Assembly (NCBI GenBank): GCA_023129805.1
Contig: JAGMBK010000075.1
Coordinates: 1 to 9,160, forward strand
Direction of reading: 5' to 3'
DNA from: Candidatus Zixiibacteriota bacterium
GTDB taxonomy: Bacteria > Zixibacteria > MSB-5A5 > SM1-73
DNA: 9,160 nucleotides
Shown here: one piece after another, positions 235 through 9,160 of the stretch
Position numbering within the stretch: position 1 is the first letter of the stretch
Layout: each line of letters starts with the position of its first letter
Program-made: the position numbers and the translations under genes
The notes under the pieces: model-generated
Told to the model about the DNA's origin: nothing
The model's input: only the letters and a program-made list of their open reading frames with translations
Databases searched by the model: none

Positions 235-1677
235 TTGAAAGATAGAATAAAGGAACTAATCGACTATTTGAAAAAAAAGAAGGTTGATTACGCGGATATC
301 AGGCATCAGAGGTCCAGCACAGAAGATGTCAAGGTGAAAAATGGAAACGTGGAGGCTTTATCCCGTAGTGACGACCAGGGATTCGGGATACGAGTCATTG
401 CCAACGGTGCCTGGGGCTTTGCCGCCAGTTCCATCCTTAGCTCAGAGGAGATGAGACGGGTGGCTGAGGCCGCGATTGAGATTGCCAAAGCTTCCGCTCT
501 GACTAAAAAGGAAGATGTCAGGCTGACACCCACAGAAATCCATCAGGATAGATACAGAAGCCTCCATGATGTCGATCCCTTTGAGGTTTCCATAGACAGA
601 AAGATAGGCCTTCTTTTAGATGCCTGCGCAATAATCCAAAAGAACCCAAAAATAAAGGTGGCAGAAGGTTCCATGCAGTTTTTTAAAACCGATAAAATCT
701 TTGCCTCCACCGAAGGCGCTTTTATAGAACAATCAATAGTGGAGAGTGGTGCTGGGATCTACGCCACTGCGGTGGAGGGCTCTGAGGCACAAAGGCGATC
801 TTACCCCAATTCCCATGGGGGCGGTTATGCCGCTAGAGGTTATGAGTTTGTGGAGGAGTTGAAGCTCTTGGAGCACGCCGAAAGAGTTAAAGAGGAAGCC
901 GTAGAGCTCCTTTCCGCACCACCTCTACCTGAAATGGAGACCACCATCATCATCTCCGGCAACCAGATGGCACTTCAGGTGCACGAATCTTGTGGACATC
1001 CCACCGAGTTGGATCGGGTTTTGGGAACGGAGATAAGTCTGGCTGGTGGAAGCTTTTTAACCTTAGACAAACGGAATAAGCTGAAATATGGTTCTGAAAA
1101 GGTCACCATAGTTGCTGATGCTACCATACCCGGAGGGTTAGGTAGCTTTGGATATGATGATGAAGGGGTCAAAGCTCAACGAGTATTTCTGGTAAAAAAT
1201 GGTCTGTTTGTGGGATATCAAACCTCTCGAGAGACTGCGGCTGTTTTGAACCTGCAAAGCAACGGCACCATGCGGGCAAACGGGTGGAATCGAATCCCCT
1301 TGATTCGAATGACCAATATAAATTTAGAACCCGGAGAATGGGATTTGGAGGATCTGATCGGAGATACCAAAGATGGGGTGTTTCTGGATACCAACAAAAG
1401 CTGGAGCATAGATGACAGGCGGCTGAATTTCCAATTCGGGGTGGAGGCGGCCTGGGAGATCAAAGGAGGCAAATTAGGAAGGATGTTCAAAAATGCCACC
1501 TATACTGGAATCACCCCTCAGTTTTGGAATAGCTGTGATGCCGTGTGCAATCGTAAATCCTGGCATATCTGGGGAGTGCCCAACTGTGGAAAAGGTGAGC
1601 CCATGCAAACCATGCACGTGGCACATGGAACCTCACCCACAAGATTTCGCAACGTTAAAGTGGGAGTAAGCAAATGA
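235..1677 (+). CDS. tldD: TldD, catalytic subunit of the TldD/TldE zinc metalloprotease
   Basis: This is the zinc-bearing subunit of the cytoplasmic TldD/TldE heterodimeric peptidase, known from E. coli for trimming the microcin B17 leader and degrading the CcdA antitoxin. The 480-residue length matches the family (about 480). The metal motif is plain: HESCGH at residues 250-255 gives two histidines and the catalytic Glu251, followed by PTELDRVLG. Near the C-terminus VPNCGKGEP places Cys451 where the third zinc ligand of the family lies. The start is TTG at 235, supported by AAGGAGG 5 nt upstream. There is no signal peptide. The stop overlaps the ATG of the next gene (ATGA), so the two subunits are probably translationally coupled. 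The native substrate is unknown, and no precursor-peptide gene or antitoxin is visible nearby. The family call is near certain. Confidence 0.96.
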   Translation: MKDRIKELIDYLKKKKVDYADIRHQRSSTEDVKVKNGNVEALSRSDDQGFGIRVIANGAWGFAASSILSSEEMRRVAEAAIEIAKASALTKKEDVRLTPTEIHQDRYRSLHDVDPFEVSIDRKIGLLLDACAIIQKNPKIKVAEGSMQFFKTDKIFASTEGAFIEQSIVESGAGIYATAVEGSEAQRRSYPNSHGGGYAARGYEFVEELKLLEHAERVKEEAVELLSAPPLPEMETTIIISGNQMALQVHESCGHPTELDRVLGTEISLAGGSFLTLDKRNKLKYGSEKVTIVADATIPGGLGSFGYDDEGVKAQRVFLVKNGLFVGYQTSRETAAVLNLQSNGTMRANGWNRIPLIRMTNINLEPGEWDLEDLIGDTKDGVFLDTNKSWSIDDRRLNFQFGVEAAWEIKGGKLGRMFKNATYTGITPQFWNSCDAVCNRKSWHIWGVPNCGKGEPMQTMHVAHGTSPTRFRNVKVGVSK

Positions 1678-3023
1678 TCGGAAAAGACAATATTCTTACT
1701 TTACTGACCGCGGTTTTAAAAAAATCTGAGGCGGATCAAACCGAAGCGGTCTACATTGGCGGCGAAAGCGGACTCACCCGCTTTGCCAACTCCGCCATCC
1801 ATCAAAACGTTTCCGAGCGGAACAGCAGGGTATATTTCCGGGCCGCCTTGGGGAAAAAGATCGGGGTGGCATCCACCAACTCTTTTATCAAGGAAGACTT
1901 GGAAAAAGCCCTTTTTGATGCAACGGAGATCGCCAGAAACCAGAGGGAGAATCCTGATTTTCCCGGTCTCCCCACCAAGCAAGAATTCACAAAGCTTGAT
2001 ACCTATTTTGAGAAGGCCGCGCACTTTTCCCCCACTCAAAGGGCGGAGGCGGTCAAAAAGATCTTTGATAAGGCAAAAGCTTTGCAACTTACTTGCGCTG
2101 GATCTTTTTCCACCGGTGATTCTGAGATAGCGGTGGTCAATACCAAAGGCGTTGCCTGTTATCAGCCGCTCACCTCCGCCTACCTTAATTTGATAGTGAT
2201 GGGAGATAACAGCTCTGGTTATGCGGATCAGCTCTCCAGAGATGTGGACTTAATCGAGGTGGATAATCTGGCTGAAGTTGCTATCAAAAAATGTATGGAG
2301 AGCAAAGATCCAAAAGATCTTGATCCCGGAGAGTATCAGGTGATATTAGAGCCATCAGCCGTGGCGGCTTTGGTGGAATGGATGAATTACATCGGGTTTG
2401 GCTCGAAGTCATTTCAAGAGGAGACCAGCTTTCTTTCCAATCGGATCGGGAAGAAGATCATGAGTGAGAACGTGACCATGTATGATGACGGCATCGATGA
2501 GAGCGCAATCGCCTTCCCCTTCGACTTTGAAGGCGTGCCCAAACAGAAGGTGATGCTGATAGAGCGGGGGATAGCGAAAGGAGTGGTGTATGATTCTGCC
2601 TCCGCTTACAGGGAGGGGAAGAGATCAACCGGTCATGCCCTTACTCCGGATAACGCCGAGGGAACTTTTGCAATGAACCTTTTCATCCAGGGCGGTGACT
2701 CCTCTCTGGATAAAATGATAGAATCGGTAAAGAAAGGGATCTTGGTGACCAGGTTTCATTACATAAACGGGCTTCTGGATACCATCAATGCGCTCTTAAC
2801 CGGAATGACCAGAGACGGCACCTTCTGGGTAGAGGAGGGAAAGATCAAGCACGGGATTAAGAACTTGCGCTTCACCGAGAGCATGCTGAAAGCATTTTCC
2901 AATGTCCAGCAGGTCTCGAAGGAGAGAAAAATCGTTGCCTCCTGGTGGGAAGACGTAGGGTGTATAGTGGCTCCTGCCATGCTGATTGATAACTTTAAAT
3001 TCACCGGCAAGACCGAGTTCTAA
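1674..3023 (+). CDS. tldE: TldE (PmbA), non-catalytic partner subunit of TldD
   Basis: The 449-residue protein has the length and layout of TldE/PmbA (about 450 residues), paralogous to TldD but without the HExxxH metal motif; the equivalent helix reads EPSAVAALVEWMNYIGFG. In characterised systems TldE shapes the substrate tunnel and is required for activity, while zinc sits only in TldD. Family-like segments include GESGLTRFANSAIHQNVSE near the N-terminus, FDFEGVPKQKVMLIERGIAKGVVYDSASA in the middle, and a C-terminus ending APAMLIDNFKFTGKTEF. The ATG overlaps the tldD stop by 4 nt, giving a classic coupled pair with equal stoichiometry. The protein is cytoplasmic with no membrane segments. 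Nothing suggests truncation. The gene is followed directly by palindromic repeats that may end transcription or stabilise the mRNA. Confidence 0.94.
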   Translation: MIGKDNILTLLTAVLKKSEADQTEAVYIGGESGLTRFANSAIHQNVSERNSRVYFRAALGKKIGVASTNSFIKEDLEKALFDATEIARNQRENPDFPGLPTKQEFTKLDTYFEKAAHFSPTQRAEAVKKIFDKAKALQLTCAGSFSTGDSEIAVVNTKGVACYQPLTSAYLNLIVMGDNSSGYADQLSRDVDLIEVDNLAEVAIKKCMESKDPKDLDPGEYQVILEPSAVAALVEWMNYIGFGSKSFQEETSFLSNRIGKKIMSENVTMYDDGIDESAIAFPFDFEGVPKQKVMLIERGIAKGVVYDSASAYREGKRSTGHALTPDNAEGTFAMNLFIQGGDSSLDKMIESVKKGILVTRFHYINGLLDTINALLTGMTRDGTFWVEEGKIKHGIKNLRFTESMLKAFSNVQQVSKERKIVASWWEDVGCIVAPAMLIDNFKFTGKTEF

Positions 3024-3051: not shown

Positions 3052-3093
3052 CCCGCCTATGGGGGGAACCATACGGTTCACCCCTGCGGCGGG
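3052..3093. repeat. Nested palindrome, copy 1 (CCCGCC/GGCGGG arms)
   Basis: Outer arms CCCGCC (3052-3057) and GGCGGG (3088-3093) pair perfectly. After a 3-nt internal loop on each side, an inner arm at 3061-3070 pairs with 3075-3084, with one mismatch, around the tetraloop ATAC (3071-3074). The core GAACCATACGGTTCA recurs almost exactly in the palindrome at 7967-8010, which has the same 3-nt internal loops, and the palindrome inside the amidase gene at 7360-7404 has the same outer arms. It lies 29 bp after the tldE stop and could protect or end the tldD-tldE transcript. Confidence 0.75.
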
Positions 3094-3105
3094 ATCTTCG
3101 ACTCT

Positions 3106-3130: not shown

Positions 3131-3238
3131 GAGCGGTTCCCCGGCTACCCAGGCGACACTGGCGGTTCTGGCCTTTCTGGAGCTCATTTTTGTTTTTTTA
3201 CCCTTCCTGCCTGCCGGGATTCTGTGCGTCAGCAGATT

Positions 3239-3283
3239 GTCGGGTAGCTCCCCCGCCTCCGGGGGGATCGCAACCCGACCTAC
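3239..3283 (-). repeat. REP-like hairpin 1 with GTAG head
   Basis: On the plus strand GTCGGGT (3239-3245) pairs with ACCCGAC (3273-3279), and an inner CCCCC/GGGGG hairpin lies between. CTAC at 3280-3283 follows directly, so read on the minus strand the element is GTAG, then a hairpin starting GTC and ending GAC. A conserved GTAG just 5' of a variable hairpin is the known hallmark of REP sequences mobilised by RAYT transposases. Confidence 0.6.
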
Positions 3284-3369
3284 AAACTGCGATACTGGGC
3301 TTTCTGGAGTTCATTTTCATTTTTTCTTTCACCCTTCCTGCCTGCTAGGATTCTGTGTGTCAGCAGATT

Positions 3370-3414
3370 GCCGGGTAGCTCCCCCGCCTCCGGGGGGATC
3401 GCAACCCGACCTAC
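3370..3414 (-). repeat. REP-like hairpin 2 with GTAG head
   Basis: This is the same element 131 bp further on, in the second array unit. The outer arm has one change (GCCGGGT at 3370-3376 against ACCCGAC at 3404-3410), leaving one mismatch in the stem. GTAG lies on the minus strand at 3411-3414. Confidence 0.6.
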
Positions 3415-3585
3415 AAACTGCGATACTGGGCTTTCTGGAGTTCATTTTCATTTTTTCTTTCACCCTTCCTGCCTGCTAGGATTCTGTGTGTCAGCAGGTT
3501 ACAAACTACGATACTGGCGGTTCTGGGCTTTCTGGGCTTTCTGGAGTTAATTTTCGTTTTTTTTCAGCCTTCCTGCCAGCAGATT

Positions 3586-4010: not shown

Positions 4011-4115
4011 AATGCTTCGAAACTCAGCATAAATGCTTCGAAACTCAGCATAAATGCTTCGAAACTCAGCACAAGTGGTTCGACGCTCACCATAAATGGT
4101 TCGAAACTCACCATA
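4011..4115. repeat. Five tandem 21-bp repeats with covarying hairpin arms
   Basis: Five contiguous 21-bp units start at 4011, 4032, 4053, 4074 and 4095, with a few bases of a sixth. Units 1-2 are identical (AATGCTTCGAAACTCAGCATA). Units 1-3 have TGCT/AGCA flanking TCGAAACTC, while units 4-5 have TGGT/ACCA flanking TCGACGCTC or TCGAAACTC. The C-G pair has become G-C in step, so the ability to pair is kept. This is not a CRISPR: there are no spacers. Confidence 0.85.
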
Positions 4116-4134
4116 AATGGGGTTTTATCTTGGT

Positions 4135-4169: not shown

Positions 4170-4184
4170 CCCGCCTTTGGCGGG
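4170..4184. repeat. Minimal CCCGCC/GGCGGG hairpin
   Basis: CCCGCC and GGCGGG pair around TTT. It looks like the outer arms of the nested palindromes at 3052 and 7360 without the inner hairpin, and may be a stripped-down relative. It could also simply be a short GC-rich hairpin. Confidence 0.4.
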
Positions 4185-4311
4185 ATTTTCAACCTGAGGC
4201 CGTAGGATGATAACGATCAAGCTCACGGGCGGCAATGGAGCGTAGCTAAATACCTGTCTGTGTGCATGCACTGGTCAGATGCTTCATATTCAGTGGTTGA
4301 CGGTCTTTTTC

Positions 4312-4341: not shown

Positions 4342-4347
4342 GAGCTG

Positions 4348-4394
4348 GGGCGCCTGTCCTGACCTAATTCCTGTTTGACAGGCGCCCTTTTTTT
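4348..4394 (+). terminator. Intrinsic terminator, copy A of a duplicated element
   Basis: GGGCGCCTGTC (4348-4358) pairs perfectly with GACAGGCGCCC (4377-4387) across an 18-nt loop and is followed by seven T (4388-4394). It is a strong plus-strand terminator 185 bp upstream of the PD40 gene. A close copy with an equal 18-nt loop and T7 lies at 8312-8358, and similarity continues about 35 bp past the T-run in both. Either it closes a transcript from upstream, or it is the 3' end of a small RNA. Confidence 0.75.
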
Positions 4395-4411
4395 CTCCGC
4401 TTGACCGTTTC

Positions 4412-4578: not shown

Positions 4579-5634
4579 ATGAGAGCCAAAAGTTTGATTG
4601 TTGGGCTGTTGTGCTTGTTTGTTCTGATGGTCGTTTTTTCCATAACCACCAACAGCCAAAAGCCATTGGAGGAGGCAGATTTTGAGGTCATTGAAATTGG
4701 CACTGGAGCTGATCCTCAGTGGTCGCCCGACGGCAAGAAGATCTCCTTTCTTTTGTATGGTTGGATGTATCTGGCCAATGCAGATGGGGAGGGAGAGATC
4801 CAAAAGCTATTCGAGATTCCCAAGACCGCTTACCGCTATCACTGGCTGGATTCAACCGAATTCCTCTTCCGAGAAACAGAACAACTGAGAGAGGAAGACG
4901 GAAGACTGCTGGAGATTACCAATAGGCTGACAGGTGTTTTGCTTCACGGGACGAAGAGAACGATAGTAGAAAGTAAACAGGATCTTGCTTCTCCTTTTGT
5001 CTTCTCCGCTCCAATATTCATGCCCGATGGGACGGTGGGATACTTTCAATTTCCGCCTGGAGAATCCTGGGTGTCGGATAATGCCGTATTCAAAGTCATA
5101 CACCAGGGTAAGCTCCCTCCTGATTCTGCCTTAAAACAGATGAGGGCAATCGTGATCCGAAGTGGACGGACTCTGTCCGGAGACATATGGCTTGAAAGTT
5201 TGGATAAATCGGTGAAAAAGAGAATTACGACAGGCGAGCTACATACATTCGTAGAACTCTCACCCGATGGGACTAAAATTCTTTCGGCATTATATGTAAT
5301 AGACTTGAAAGGAAACAAGACGCGTGTCGGGGAAAAAGGAGTAGACACTGCTGACATCTCAGAGAGTTCGATAGGAACTCCACAAGCAAAATGGTCACCA
5401 GATAGCAAAAAGATCGCTTATATGCGGCTTACTGCAAAAATCCTTGATTGGGACGGACAGGCTATCGAAAATATTGCAGGCGAGATACACATAGCAAACG
5501 CTGACGGCTCTGGTATCAAAGTCATTGATATCCCTGATGTAATTGAACTGAATCCAGTTTGGTCCCCTGACGGAACAAGGATTGCCTGCACTGGAGAGAA
5601 TACGGGCAAAGTATATGTTATAAAACTAAAGTGA
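4579..5634 (+). CDS. Secreted PD40/TolB-like beta-propeller protein
   Basis: The 351-residue protein starts with a signal peptide: MRAK, a hydrophobic stretch at residues 6-22, then small residues. It is either cleaved around residue 26 or a membrane anchor. The rest carries PD40 (WD40-like) propeller repeats with the WSPDG signature at residues 48-52, 227-231 (LSPDG), 272-276 (WSPDS) and 328-332; blades between are degenerate. 'ANADG' turns before the strands at two places are typical of TolB-type propellers. Such domains bind proteins or peptides, or appear as periplasmic or surface modules; no catalytic residues are evident, so no enzymatic role is claimed. AAGGAG at 4564-4569 precedes the ATG. 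The gene is 42 bp upstream of the preferred start of the amidase and probably cotranscribed. At about 350 residues it is shorter than full TolB (about 430) and lacks an obvious TolB N-terminal domain. Confidence 0.85.
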   Translation: MRAKSLIVGLLCLFVLMVVFSITTNSQKPLEEADFEVIEIGTGADPQWSPDGKKISFLLYGWMYLANADGEGEIQKLFEIPKTAYRYHWLDSTEFLFRETEQLREEDGRLLEITNRLTGVLLHGTKRTIVESKQDLASPFVFSAPIFMPDGTVGYFQFPPGESWVSDNAVFKVIHQGKLPPDSALKQMRAIVIRSGRTLSGDIWLESLDKSVKKRITTGELHTFVELSPDGTKILSALYVIDLKGNKTRVGEKGVDTADISESSIGTPQAKWSPDSKKIAYMRLTAKILDWDGQAIENIAGEIHIANADGSGIKVIDIPDVIELNPVWSPDGTRIACTGENTGKVYVIKLK

Positions 5635-5676
5635 TCCTCTATCCAAAAAATCGCTTTAATTATGAGGGGTGAAAAA

Positions 5677-7740
5677 ATGAAAAGGATATGGTTAATTTCG
5701 GTGGTGGCGCCGATTATTCTTATGTCGATGTCGGAAAGGTCGTTAGCTCCGCCATACAGCGTGGTATGTGTTGATCCAGGTCATGGCGGTCCCGGGGCTT
5801 CCAAATACGGACCTAATGGAGACGGGCATGGCACCTGTGGACCCGTGCTTCAATTATCTGAACAATGGGTCAACCTTCAAGTCGGCCTTGAGTTATACGA
5901 TTTAATATACTACATGGGAGGTGTAGGGTTCCCTGTAATTATGACTCGGGAAACTGAGCAGGCTGAAAATCTGCATTGGGAATTTGGATATTGGTATACA
6001 ATGTGGGAACGTGTTAACATAGCTAATTACGGGGATGATGGTACAGGTTTTCTTGTAACGCAATTTATTTCCGTTCACCACAATGACTACACGCCCACTC
6101 CGGGAAGCCAAGGGACAGAAGAGTGGTGGAGTTCCCAGACTTACACCGACAGCAGCTATCTACGAGATCGTGGTTATTGGCGGCCGGCTTACCAAGACTC
6201 GCTTCTCGCAATGAAAACTCAACTCCGACTCTTGGACTTATGGAATTATAGAGATCGTTGCATAACCCGTTGTCAGCCAGGTTCTGGAAGCAGTTTTTGT
6301 TGTGACGAAACCAGATTTGGACGATTGTTCGTTCTTTTCAATACCGTGATGCCCTCTGTGCTTTCGGAAGCTTCAAATCTCAAGGACACTACTGAAGAGC
6401 TACTTTTTGATGATCCCTATTCCGGGCACGCTGATTCCGAGGCCGTGGCGCTATACGATGGCTGGTATAGCCACGCAGATAACGCGGGTATTGCTATCGT
6501 TCGCAATAGCTATGCATCGGGTAATAAGGGAAAAGTTATTATTACTCCAGATTGGGGATGTGATGATGGTGATACGGTGTCCTCCCCCTTTATTTCCTGC
6601 TGGTTATTTGGTGAGTTCCATTGTCTCAAGGCAATGACTCCCCAGATTATCAGCGGGTATGAATACACCTTTCATCACTGGACCCATTTGAATCCAATGG
6701 GCGGGCAACTTGGAGACAATTGGTATGAGCCTGAATGGCGGATCATGGTGCAGGCAGAATATGATTACCACCGGTATGTGGCTTACTTTACTGGTGGACC
6801 CTATTCCGCCCAGGTTGATACTCCCAATGGGGGCCAGAACTGGTGTGTGGGGGAGCAAAGAACCATTGCTTGGACTGTTTCCCCAGGGGCTGACTCAACT
6901 ACCTATGTGGATGTCTTTTTGGACAGAAATGGGGGCAATGATGGCTATCCAGAACGAATAGTTGATAGCATACCGGGGGCATATTACTGGGGTTGGACCT
7001 GGACCGTGACGCCTCCCTATTCTACACATTGCCGAATAAAAGTAGTAGCTTACGATAGAGCAGGCAATTCCGCCGAGGATGTCTCTAATTATGATTTCAT
7101 CATCAGTGAATCCGGAAACAACAATCCGGTTATCGACTCTTATCTGCATTGCAAGTATCCTTACGATGAGTGCGCTGACTGCATCAAATATGGGGAAGCA
7201 GTAACCATCGAAATTCTGGCGCATGATCCGGATGGTGACTCTATCTTTTATGAATGGTACTGCTTTTTTGGGCATTTTGCCGAAAACGGGCAAAATACCA
7301 TAACCACTGCCGAAAACTTTGTTACCTATGTGGCGCCCACTAAAGGCAAAGCTGAAAGTCCCGCCCTTCGGTCTGAGCCCTCAGGGTCGAAGACCAACGG
7401 CGGGGAGGGAGAAGAAACACTTTTTGATGATTTCATATCAGTTGGAGTGATAGATGTTCGCGGGGGCGATAGCGTTACAGTTGGATGGCCCGAACTACAT
7501 GACCAGGAATACACCTGCCTTTGTGGGGATGCGAATGATGATTTGATAGTAAACCTTGGGGATATTGTTTACCTTGTCGGATATGTATTTAGAGGTGGAT
7601 CTCCACCGTACGACCCGTTTGAGCGGGGGGATGCAAATAACGATTGCGAAATTGATCTGGGGGATATTGTATATTTAACAAGTTATGTCTTTCAAGGTGG
7701 ACCTCCCCCTGAATGTTGCTGGTTTCCCCCTGAACAGTAG
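5677..7740 (+). CDS. Secreted N-acetylmuramoyl-L-alanine amidase with Ig-like domains and C-terminal dockerin
   Basis: This is an Amidase_3 family zinc enzyme (EC 3.5.1.28) that cuts the MurNAc-L-Ala bond of peptidoglycan. I chose ATG 5677 (687 residues) because GAGGGGTG ends 5 nt upstream; ATG 5662 has no ribosome site. Residues 1-25 form a signal peptide. The catalytic domain spans about 28-260: VDPGHGG (His36), SEQWVNL (Glu62), MTRET, SVHHN (His134), and the catalytic PSVLSEASNL (Glu231). A beta-rich linker follows to about 375, then two Ig-like segments (about 380-485 and 486-610). The dockerin lies at 614-683, with two calcium-loop repeats, GDANDDLIVNLGDIVYL and GDANNDCEIDLGDIVYL, each followed by an F.GG.PP stretch. 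Cysteines are numerous, suiting an oxidising compartment. Residues 562-576 are encoded by an in-frame palindromic element. It may anchor to a cohesin partner encoded elsewhere, but no cohesin is visible. Confidence 0.93.
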   Translation: MKRIWLISVVAPIILMSMSERSLAPPYSVVCVDPGHGGPGASKYGPNGDGHGTCGPVLQLSEQWVNLQVGLELYDLIYYMGGVGFPVIMTRETEQAENLHWEFGYWYTMWERVNIANYGDDGTGFLVTQFISVHHNDYTPTPGSQGTEEWWSSQTYTDSSYLRDRGYWRPAYQDSLLAMKTQLRLLDLWNYRDRCITRCQPGSGSSFCCDETRFGRLFVLFNTVMPSVLSEASNLKDTTEELLFDDPYSGHADSEAVALYDGWYSHADNAGIAIVRNSYASGNKGKVIITPDWGCDDGDTVSSPFISCWLFGEFHCLKAMTPQIISGYEYTFHHWTHLNPMGGQLGDNWYEPEWRIMVQAEYDYHRYVAYFTGGPYSAQVDTPNGGQNWCVGEQRTIAWTVSPGADSTTYVDVFLDRNGGNDGYPERIVDSIPGAYYWGWTWTVTPPYSTHCRIKVVAYDRAGNSAEDVSNYDFIISESGNNNPVIDSYLHCKYPYDECADCIKYGEAVTIEILAHDPDGDSIFYEWYCFFGHFAENGQNTITTAENFVTYVAPTKGKAESPALRSEPSGSKTNGGEGEETLFDDFISVGVIDVRGGDSVTVGWPELHDQEYTCLCGDANDDLIVNLGDIVYLVGYVFRGGSPPYDPFERGDANNDCEIDLGDIVYLTSYVFQGGPPPECCWFPPEQ
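7360..7404. repeat. In-frame palindromic element inside the amidase gene
   Basis: CCCGCC (7360-7365) pairs with GGCGGG (7399-7404). Further in, GGTCT (7370-7374) pairs with AGACC (7391-7395), and CCC/GGG form a small central hairpin. At 45 bp it is exactly 15 codons, begins on a codon boundary and encodes PALRSEPSGSKTNGG. It falls in a loop of the last Ig-like domain, between VAPTKGKAES and EGEETLFDDF. The nested architecture matches the intergenic palindromes at 3052-3093 and 7967-8010. Confidence 0.7.
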
Positions 7741-7966: not shown

Positions 7967-8010
7967 TTCCGCCTTTGGTATGAACCATACGGCTCATACC
8001 TCTGGCGGAA
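7967..8010. repeat. Nested palindrome, copy 2
   Basis: TTCCGCC (7967-7973) pairs with GGCGGAA (8004-8010). After symmetric 3-nt internal loops, GGTATGA (7977-7983) pairs with TCATACC (7994-8000), and CC/GG close the ATAC tetraloop after one mismatch. The core GAACCATACGG is shared with copy 1 at 3066-3076, and the arms differ in sequence yet pair. Confidence 0.75.
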
Positions 8011-8243: not shown

Positions 8244-8311
8244 TAGGGCGCAGGACCACATTCACATTTCGAGGACATAAACAAAAAGAAGTTTGAAAAA
8301 GAATTTATTTG

Positions 8312-8358
8312 GGGCGCCTGTCCTGACCACTGATTAGGCTGATAGGCGCCCTTTTTTT
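8312..8358 (+). terminator. Intrinsic terminator, copy B of a duplicated element
   Basis: GGGCGCCTGTC (8312-8322) pairs with GATAGGCGCCC (8341-8351), keeping a G-U wobble where copy A has a Watson-Crick pair, and is followed by seven T (8352-8358). The 18-nt loop has the same length as that of copy A but diverges after CTGACC. Downstream, CGCCAAAG and GAAGGCAAC match the sequence after copy A. It could stop plus-strand transcription running on from the amidase operon before it enters the convergent secretin gene. Confidence 0.7.
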
Positions 8359-8516
8359 CTGGTTCGTCCGTGACGCCAAAGTGAAGGCAACGGATTCATC
8401 CTGAACAGGTGAGTCGACCCTCCGTCAACAAATGAGAAAAAAGATCTTTCCACAGGGCCAGAAAGGATTTTAGGCAGAGGGGAGAGGCGGGGCTACGTTA
8501 TTGCATGCTCAGTTTA

Positions 8517-9160
8517 TTATTTATATGGTTCGTCTTTTCCACCTGTTGGCTCCTCGGTAAGAATATGTGGAGTTATGAAAATGACCGTCTCGATCTCAAC
8601 TACTCTTTTGTCAGTTCTACTAAATAAATACCCCAGTATTGGAATGTCACCCAAAAGCGGGATTTTTCGTCGCATAGTTGATTCATTTTTTTGAAGCAGA
8701 CCGCCAATTACGATAGTTTCACCGTCCTTCACCCTTATTTTGGTTGAGACGGATCTTTTGCTCACCACCGGTAGTCCGGTAGCACCTGTGCCCACCACAT
8801 CGCTTACCTCAGGTTGTATTTCAACAGTTATCTCACCTTTATCGGAAATATAGGGCACAATTTGCAAGGATACACCCACAGTGATCCTTTCCAAACGACC
8901 ATAATAATAAGGAGCAGCCCCTGTAGTTATAACATGATATTCTTCTTTTCCAATCAGAATAGTCGCTTTTTGACCCTCAAGAGTCGCAACTCTTGGATTG
9001 GCGCGGATGTTTACTTTACCATCCTGGACCAAAGCCTTCAACGTACCCTTAAACTCACCTAACCACCCTTCGACTTTCGCATCGGGCCTCAGGAACCTTA
9101 TGCCTAAGGTACTATCGAGCAAATCACCGAGTGGGACAATCACAGAAAGCTCTCGTCCGT
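8517..9160 (-). CDS. Secretin (GspD/PilQ family), C-terminal part
   Basis: Only the last 213 codons are inside the window; the frame is open to the right edge (GRELSVIVPLGDLLD...), so the true start lies beyond it and the GTG at 9143 is internal. Secretins form the multimeric outer-membrane gate of type II secretion, type III secretion or type IV pilus systems. The visible part is the conserved secretin beta-barrel domain: NIRANPRVATLEGQKATILIG, then VGVSLQIVPYISDKGEITVEIQPEVS, then KRSVSTKIRVKDGETIVIGGLL. The segment from GETIVIGGL through IPLLGDIPILGYLF matches the classical secretin signature, including the 11-residue gap, and ITPHI closes the domain. The tail EEPTGGKDEPYK is short, so no S-domain is visible. 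Without the N-domains I cannot say whether this is GspD or PilQ; the short C-terminus ending soon after ITPHI is compatible with PilQ. It is convergent with the amidase gene. Confidence 0.93.
   Translation of the reverse strand, partial: GRELSVIVPLGDLLDSTLGIRFLRPDAKVEGWLGEFKGTLKALVQDGKVNIRANPRVATLEGQKATILIGKEEYHVITTGAAPYYYGRLERITVGVSLQIVPYISDKGEITVEIQPEVSDVVGTGATGLPVVSKRSVSTKIRVKDGETIVIGGLLQKNESTMRRKIPLLGDIPILGYLFSRTDKRVVEIETVIFITPHILTEEPTGGKDEPYK

Follow-up and report, generated by a model that had tools for sequence, protein, structure and literature searches.

A nested palindromic repeat inserted in frame in a secreted amidase gene of Zixibacteriota, with related copies in unrelated genes

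We examined a 9,160-nt stretch of DNA from Candidatus Zixiibacteriota bacterium (contig JAGMBK010000075.1; "the window" throughout) that encodes a secreted N-acetylmuramoyl-L-alanine amidase, and found that the amidase gene carries a 54-bp insert that several of its homologues lack. The insert is one small palindrome nested in the loop of another, and close relatives of both palindromes recur in related genomes, between genes and in frame within unrelated genes. We conclude, with a probability of about 0.88, that the insert arose when a small Zixibacteriota repeat, non-autonomous and built of two palindromic layers, inserted in frame, and that this repeat acts like a Rickettsia palindromic element (RPE).

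5662-7740, + strand: secreted N-acetylmuramoyl-L-alanine amidase (Amidase_3, Ig-like domains, dockerin-like C-terminal repeats), identified from its open reading frame, Pfam, homologues P0002-P0048 and fold matches to amidases

The amidase frame has an alternative start at 5677 and matches Pfam PF01520 with an E-value of 2e-12; the dockerin-like assignment draws on the sequence and on PF00404 matches precomputed for homologues. The named amidase homologues (P0008, P0034 and P0049) and the one relative found on a genome contig, L001, are from Zixibacteriota.

The amidase insert is a palindrome within a palindrome

A sequence-only reading of the window had described a nested palindrome with outer arms CCCGCC/GGCGGG and inner arms GGTCT/AGACC, and this structure is present as described: CCCGCC (7360-7365) pairs with GGCGGG (7399-7404) around the inner GGTCT/AGACC pair, giving 45 bp (7360-7404) that encode 15 residues, PALRSEPSGSKTNGG, in the amidase frame. 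That count holds for the palindrome, but not for the whole insert, which insert-free homologues show to be longer: where P0012 reads KGRQGEETLF the window protein reads KGKAESPALRSEPSGSKTNGGEGEETLF, a difference of 18 residues, or 54 bp. The insert thus consists of a 24-bp outer unit with a 30-bp palindrome, which we call cassette i, inside its loop.

7351-7404, + strand: whole in-frame insert, 54 bp, residues 564-581 (AESPALRSEPSGSKTNGG), delimited by the 18-residue gap in insert-free homologues such as P0012; inserts in LolA and DUF3857 genes have the same net size
7351-7365, + strand: left part of the outer 24-bp unit (GCTGAAAGTCCCGCC), recognised from the repeat family
7366-7395, + strand: inner cassette i, 30 bp, palindromic (CTTCGGTCTGAGCCCTCAGGGTCGAAGACC), recognised from repeat copies
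7396-7404, + strand: loop triplet AAC and right arm GGCGGG of the outer unit, recognised from repeat copies

RNA corresponding to positions 7355-7410 folds at -26.3 kcal/mol, but 16 of 200 shuffled sequences fold at least equally well (z -1.7), and folding by itself is therefore weak evidence for the palindrome; the real evidence is the recurrence of copies. In an AlphaFold2 model of the amidase (mean predicted local distance difference test score, pLDDT, 73.6), residues 563-588 have pLDDT values below 50 and lie between strands at 553-557 and 592-598, as expected of a flexible loop, with other parts of the model likewise below 50, including most of residues 617-686.

The outer unit and its cassettes form a repeat family

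Across related genomes the outer unit has the 24-bp consensus GTTGAAAATCCCGCC-NNN-GGCGGG, with variants, and is either empty or loaded directly after CCCGCC. We found three cassettes in this position: cassette i (30 bp), cassette ii (39 bp; CTTCGACAGGCTCAGGGTGGTGAGCGAAGTCGAACCACC) and cassette iii (27 bp counting one loop triplet), the last with the core GGTRTGAACC....GGTTCAYACC and, in some copies, with loop triplets on both sides. Some copies of cassette i lie in other outer flanks, and nesting can go one step further, with an additional palindrome within cassette i in the DNA of genome G107 (two 61-bp copies) and in protein P0111 (10 extra residues).

The window itself holds three intergenic copies, each recognised by repeat comparison:

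3052-3102, - strand: outer unit with cassette iii
4170-4193, - strand: empty outer unit (GTTGAAAATCCCGCCAAAGGCGGG)
7969-8008, - strand: cassette iii between CCGCC/GGCGG arms, with a decayed outer left flank

The first and third of these bear out the earlier suggestion that the amidase palindrome shares its design with two nearby intergenic palindromes, one having the same outer unit and the other only a decayed outer flank.

We searched 132 genomes from the phylum to which G001 belongs with the inner 26-mer (at most 3 mismatches) and found matches in three, G104 (4 places), G105 (3) and G107 (2), and none with a reversed-pattern control. With at most one mismatch, the outer 15-mer was found at 20 places in G104 and 29 in G105 (reversed control 0 in both) and at 5-17 places in five other genomes, the reversed controls over all genomes tried giving 0-2. 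Other copies, whose absence would have counted against insertion, are thus present in related genomes. A covariance model returned, at E <=0.1, at least 19 matches in G104, at least 16 in G105 and at least 8 in G107, with at least one match in at least 7 of 13 genomes; these counts are lower bounds, at most 150 candidates per genome having been scored, and many of the matches with low scores are distinct palindromes that contain similar parts. A generic search for CCCGCC-N(20,40)-GGCGGG over the 132 genomes was too loose, many genomes having as many or more control matches, and gave an excess over the control on the forward strand in G104 (8 against 3), G105 (14 against 1) and G107 (23 against 9). 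Cassette i had no exact match in viral_contigs. In eight copies of cassette iii, 96.1% of cells pair (0 of 500 shuffles reached this value) and three pairs vary on both sides (16 of 500 shuffles reached this), such that covariation is present but modest.

Two clusters of outer units were noted in passing. Locus L149 (G105:C289, ~344-1134) has five outer-unit places in ~800 bp, some of them antisense within a 284-residue open frame, and G103:C95 has three between 24039 and 24367, spaced exactly 157 bp apart, a tandem amplification.

The amidase site has changed state repeatedly

We aligned the window protein with P0002-P0048 (47 of the 106 homologues found), several of which end short of the insert site. 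Four kinds of state occur at one position. There is no insert in P0003, P0004, P0005, P0006, P0008 and P0012, among others, so not all orthologues carry a divergent version of the segment, as would be expected had it not been inserted; P0007, P0014, P0016, P0017, P0020, P0023, P0026 and P0034 have the outer unit only; the window protein, P0002, P0009, P0022, P0024, P0025 and P0028 have the outer unit with cassette i; and P0015 and P0040 have a longer or different segment, that of P0040 resembling, in a protein-level reading, cassette ii with further material.

On a tree of 32 homologues made with the insert columns removed (a 33-row version was also made), a single clade for the seven cassette-i amidases was rejected (approximately unbiased test, p-AU 6.6e-36), and presence or absence of the cassette requires six changes. 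Because the carriers cannot form one clade, these sequences indicate that cassette i has been gained, lost or exchanged repeatedly at this site rather than inherited as one block. Between the group comprising the window protein, P0002 and P0009 and the group comprising P0022, P0024, P0025 and P0028, the inserts are identical at 15-17 of 18 residues, versus 20-28 of 60 for the right flank and 34-40 of 59 for the left flank. The amidase insert is about as similar to those in LolA, the DUF3857 protein and a histidine kinase, at 14-17 of 18 residues.

Copies lie in frame in unrelated genes

Judging gene status from open frames and Pfam matches rather than with a gene caller, we found that 15 of the 49 outer-unit places, 5 of the 20 in G104 and 10 of the 29 in G105, lie in the sense orientation within a recognisable gene or a long open frame; 11 of these are interior and 4 terminal, and the remaining 34 places are outside recognised genes. 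All searches together gave 15 interior sense insertions in 14 genes: the amidase, a GAF histidine kinase, LolA, a DUF3857 protein, ComEA, a PAS histidine kinase (two insertions), a PQQ propeller, 5-FTHF cyclo-ligase, NAD(P)H-hydrate dehydratase (NNR), a 681-residue frame with no Pfam match, an S8 peptidase, ComEC, a TPR membrane protein and a BNR/dockerin protein. The consensus is open in two sense frames, the third containing TGA, and both are used: 11 of the 15 insertions read VENPA...GG and four read LKIPP...AG. The proposal that the amidase insert is an RPE-like in-frame insertion was therefore right in substance, with the element entering unrelated genes in frame and contributing nearly the same peptide. 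We found one clear antisense copy within a gene, in an NHL-repeat protein (L060), and left other antisense open frames (e.g. L056 and L150) unclassified. At most one antisense copy in 16 would have a probability of 2.6e-4 under an even split, a figure that leaves out the ambiguous antisense frames, which makes the sense-strand bias only suggestive. The ComEA frame (L066, G105:C41, 1311-1949, - strand) has an apparent second, more diverged insert upstream (NPMVRPFDRLMVLSEVEAQAHH).

Terminal copies occur in LysS (G104 and G105), an NTP transferase, an FG-GAP protein and a radical SAM protein. Lysyl-tRNA synthetase ends with an element-encoded tail (VENPAEG...) in both G104 (L092, G104:C94) and G105 (L097, G105:C9), and this copy may for that reason be older than the split of the two lineages. 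The radical SAM homologues L007 (G104:C24) and L148 (G105:C429) share an N-terminal outer unit in matching position; it holds cassette i in one genome, whereas in the other cassette i is missing and there is another small hairpin.

Insert-free counterparts delimit several of these copies. The NNR gene of G104 has a 63-bp insert (24+39) that is absent from G100, G106, G107, G108, G109 and G110 (67-79% protein identity; G110 is two residues longer); the G103 match ends before the site, and partial matches in G099 and G105 were left out. The NNR alignment to PDB 2ax3 is interrupted at the same site, in the dehydratase domain. The DUF3857 protein P0107, from the named strain SM1_73, has an 18-residue insert, to which P0111 adds 10 residues; it is absent from 49 of the 50 other aligned homologues, P0157 being uninformative, and six of the insert-free homologues (P0108-P0110 and P0112-P0114) are 72-79% identical over their length. 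In LolA, 54 bp are missing from the G104 orthologue, and in ComEC, 21 residues (63 bp) are missing from all six orthologues compared, including that of G104. For the S8 peptidase, which has the outer unit only, the closest homologue (L214) has two gaps totalling eight residues. Inserts with cassette i are thus 54 bp in three genes and those with cassette ii 63 bp in two, in agreement with the sizes predicted from the units.

Reading frame appears to filter loaded copies

Cassette i is exactly 30 bp in five of five gene copies, whereas elsewhere only 2 of 10 copies have a length divisible by three (lengths 28-32 and 61), a split with a probability, calculated by hand, of 21/3003 = 0.007; one further 31-bp copy, L059, is left out of this count. 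Our initial supposition that every unit is a multiple of three everywhere was therefore too strong. For outer units, we analysed 77 of 98 matches, dropping 21 without an exact right arm, including an RsmI-like N-terminal copy (L158). These were found by the left arm GTTGAAAAT, and their internal length is divisible by three in all 24 gene rows, which represent 22 distinct copies, with one PAS-kinase copy appearing three times, and in 48 of 53 other rows. Thirty-four of the 53 are empty (NNN), and of the loaded ones 14 of 18 are multiples of three; the non-multiple L107 is a chance match. An empty outer unit keeps the frame unaided, and the lengths of cassette i within and outside genes suggest that reading frame filters which loaded copies persist.

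Other features of the window

235-1677 and 1674-3023: TldD/PmbA pair
4579-5634: WD40-like protein
8517-9158, strand opposite to the amidase: end of a secretin gene

Within the window, no Rfam family scored at or above its threshold. The intergenic stretch that holds palindromes also has a direct repeat at 3189-3500 with a period of 131 bp, in which two almost complete copies, 95% identical, are accompanied by a partial third. Tandem 21-bp units (TGCTTCGAAACTCAGCATAAA) lie at 4013-4119, and two similar GGGGCGCCTGTCCTGACC...AGGCGCCCTTTTTTTCT hairpins with T runs, at 4347-4396 and 8311-8360, look terminator-like by eye.

Discussion

We propose that a 24-bp outer palindrome would enter a gene and add eight codons, and that its loop, directly after CCCGCC, could then take up interchangeable inner palindromes (27, 30 or 39 bp), such that the insert grows by nesting. 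Because the consensus can be read through in two of its three sense frames and encodes a hydrophilic peptide (VENPA...GGEE or LKIPP..AG), copies of frame-keeping size would persist where a surface loop or terminus tolerates them. The element would presumably be mobilised by an enzyme acting in trans, the outer loop may be a preferred target for inner palindromes, and the effect of the insert on the enzyme is probably near-neutral. Tentatively, and with somewhat less than even confidence, we suggest that the outer palindrome is a self-laid landing pad: once it is in a gene, inner palindromes would be taken up, lost or swapped in its loop again and again, in a site-specific manner. If so, homologous proteins would lengthen in parallel at a shared site, first by a block of 8 residues and later by one of 10 or 13, and protein loops would grow by a modular route that acts on DNA and is safe for the reading frame.

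Several observations weigh against insertion of a mobile repeat, or soften the evidence for it. We identified no mobilising enzyme, Y1_Tnp being the only family searched; Y1_Tnp genes are present in 10 of 10 genomes searched, and no element lies beside the 12 of 41 matches inspected, within ~1.5 kb where the contig allows. Aligned borders of four genes show no clear target-site duplication. The NNR genes of G101 and G102 have an unrelated, longer loop at the insert site, and in LolA, where the site lies at the signal-peptide junction, orthologues other than that of G104 (e.g. G106) differ in length. The state of each homologue at the amidase site was read from protein rather than DNA, and carriers of cassette i were chosen by its motif, which biases them toward high insert identity. 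Lastly, within the group of P0022, P0024, P0025 and P0028 the insert (14-17 of 18 residues) is no better kept than the left flank (50-54 of 59); since the contrast between insert and flank disappears here, these four may share one insertion event.

That last observation also fits the alternative that the patchy amidase site arose mainly by recombination or gene conversion between homologues, with one or a few insertions followed by exchange of the loop. All amidase carriers share one site, as exchange would predict, and those four homologues could derive from one event. We nonetheless consider this account unlikely, though it deserves more weight than any other alternative, because the low identity of the right flank between groups would require a very short exchanged tract, and because copies in unrelated genes are left unexplained.

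Much less probable is that selection acts on the peptide, which might serve as a flexible charged linker, and that the DNA palindrome is incidental. The residues are hydrophilic and one frame dominates, but 4 of the 15 insertions use another frame and encode a different peptide, most copies in G104 and G105 (34 of 49) lie outside recognised genes, and the paired arms of cassette iii covary, albeit in only eight sequences. We give marginally less credence still to an ancestral amidase segment that was deleted repeatedly: tree parsimony cannot separate gain from loss, but the peptide is as close to the inserts in LolA, the DUF3857 protein and the histidine kinase as to those of homologous amidases, and is far more alike between amidase groups than are the flanks. 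A chance palindrome in a variable loop, with which the modest folding z-score would agree, is rejected given recurrence across genomes with controls of 0 and the same insert in several amidase homologues.

If the insert is a mobile repeat of the kind we propose, its setting is of use: an uncultured environmental phylum offers insert-free, outer-only and loaded homologues of one enzyme, making stepwise loop growth by selfish DNA testable. Blocks of 18-21 residues in Zixibacteriota proteins can, moreover, be repeat DNA rather than function.

The comparisons that follow draw on excerpts of the papers cited. Most coding palindromes described there are from intracellular bacteria, with a few other groups also represented. 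The statement in the sequence-only reading that such elements are known chiefly from Rickettsia slightly overstates the case, since palindromes or miniature inverted-repeat transposable elements (MITEs) inserted in frame, ERIC and Correia elements among them, are also described for Wolbachia, M. jannaschii, enterobacteria, Neisseria and genomes rich in repetitive extragenic palindromes (REPs), including GTAG/CGTC-tagged REPs (PMC10969869, PMC3733652, PMC2229807, PMC2996958). Like RPEs, the Zixibacteriota element is found in intergenic DNA and also, in frame, within protein genes unrelated to one another, leaving a recognisable peptide in the product. RPEs differ in being ~105-150 bp, versus 24, 54 or 63 bp here by insert-free comparison, and in belonging to Rickettsia, whereas the named relatives here are of another phylum, the Zixibacteriota; RPE-4 and RPE-6 end in CGTC, which our element does not, and the excerpts describe no interchangeable inner cassettes for RPEs (PMC10969869, PMC2229807, PMC3733652). 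GTAG/CGTC-tagged REPs are likewise short hairpin repeats, some lying wholly within open reading frames in several species (PMC3733652), but the Zixibacteriota element mostly lacks an end tag (GTAG, CTAC, CGTC or GACG occurs within 6 bp of an end in only 4 of 77 rows and is absent from 73) and was not found beside the 12 Y1_Tnp loci inspected. ERIC and Correia MITEs, too, are inverted repeats that are non-autonomous and whose open reading frames become joined to host genes, but they are ~100-200 bp with terminal repeats and, mostly, target duplication, as opposed to units of 24-39 bp with no clear duplication (PMC2229807). REPs that serve as targets of insertion sequences (ISs) offer a parallel for a palindrome as the entry site of another element; there the incoming element is a whole IS, whereas here it is a small palindrome and the host frame survives (PMC1525189). 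Among titles and abstract beginnings in the open-licence PMC literature, we found no report of such an element in Zixibacteria or of nested in-frame palindromes. By the features tested, the element is neither an RPE, on size and host, nor a GTAG/CGTC-tagged REP; new are its host phylum, its modular palindrome-in-palindrome build and its recurrence at one site.
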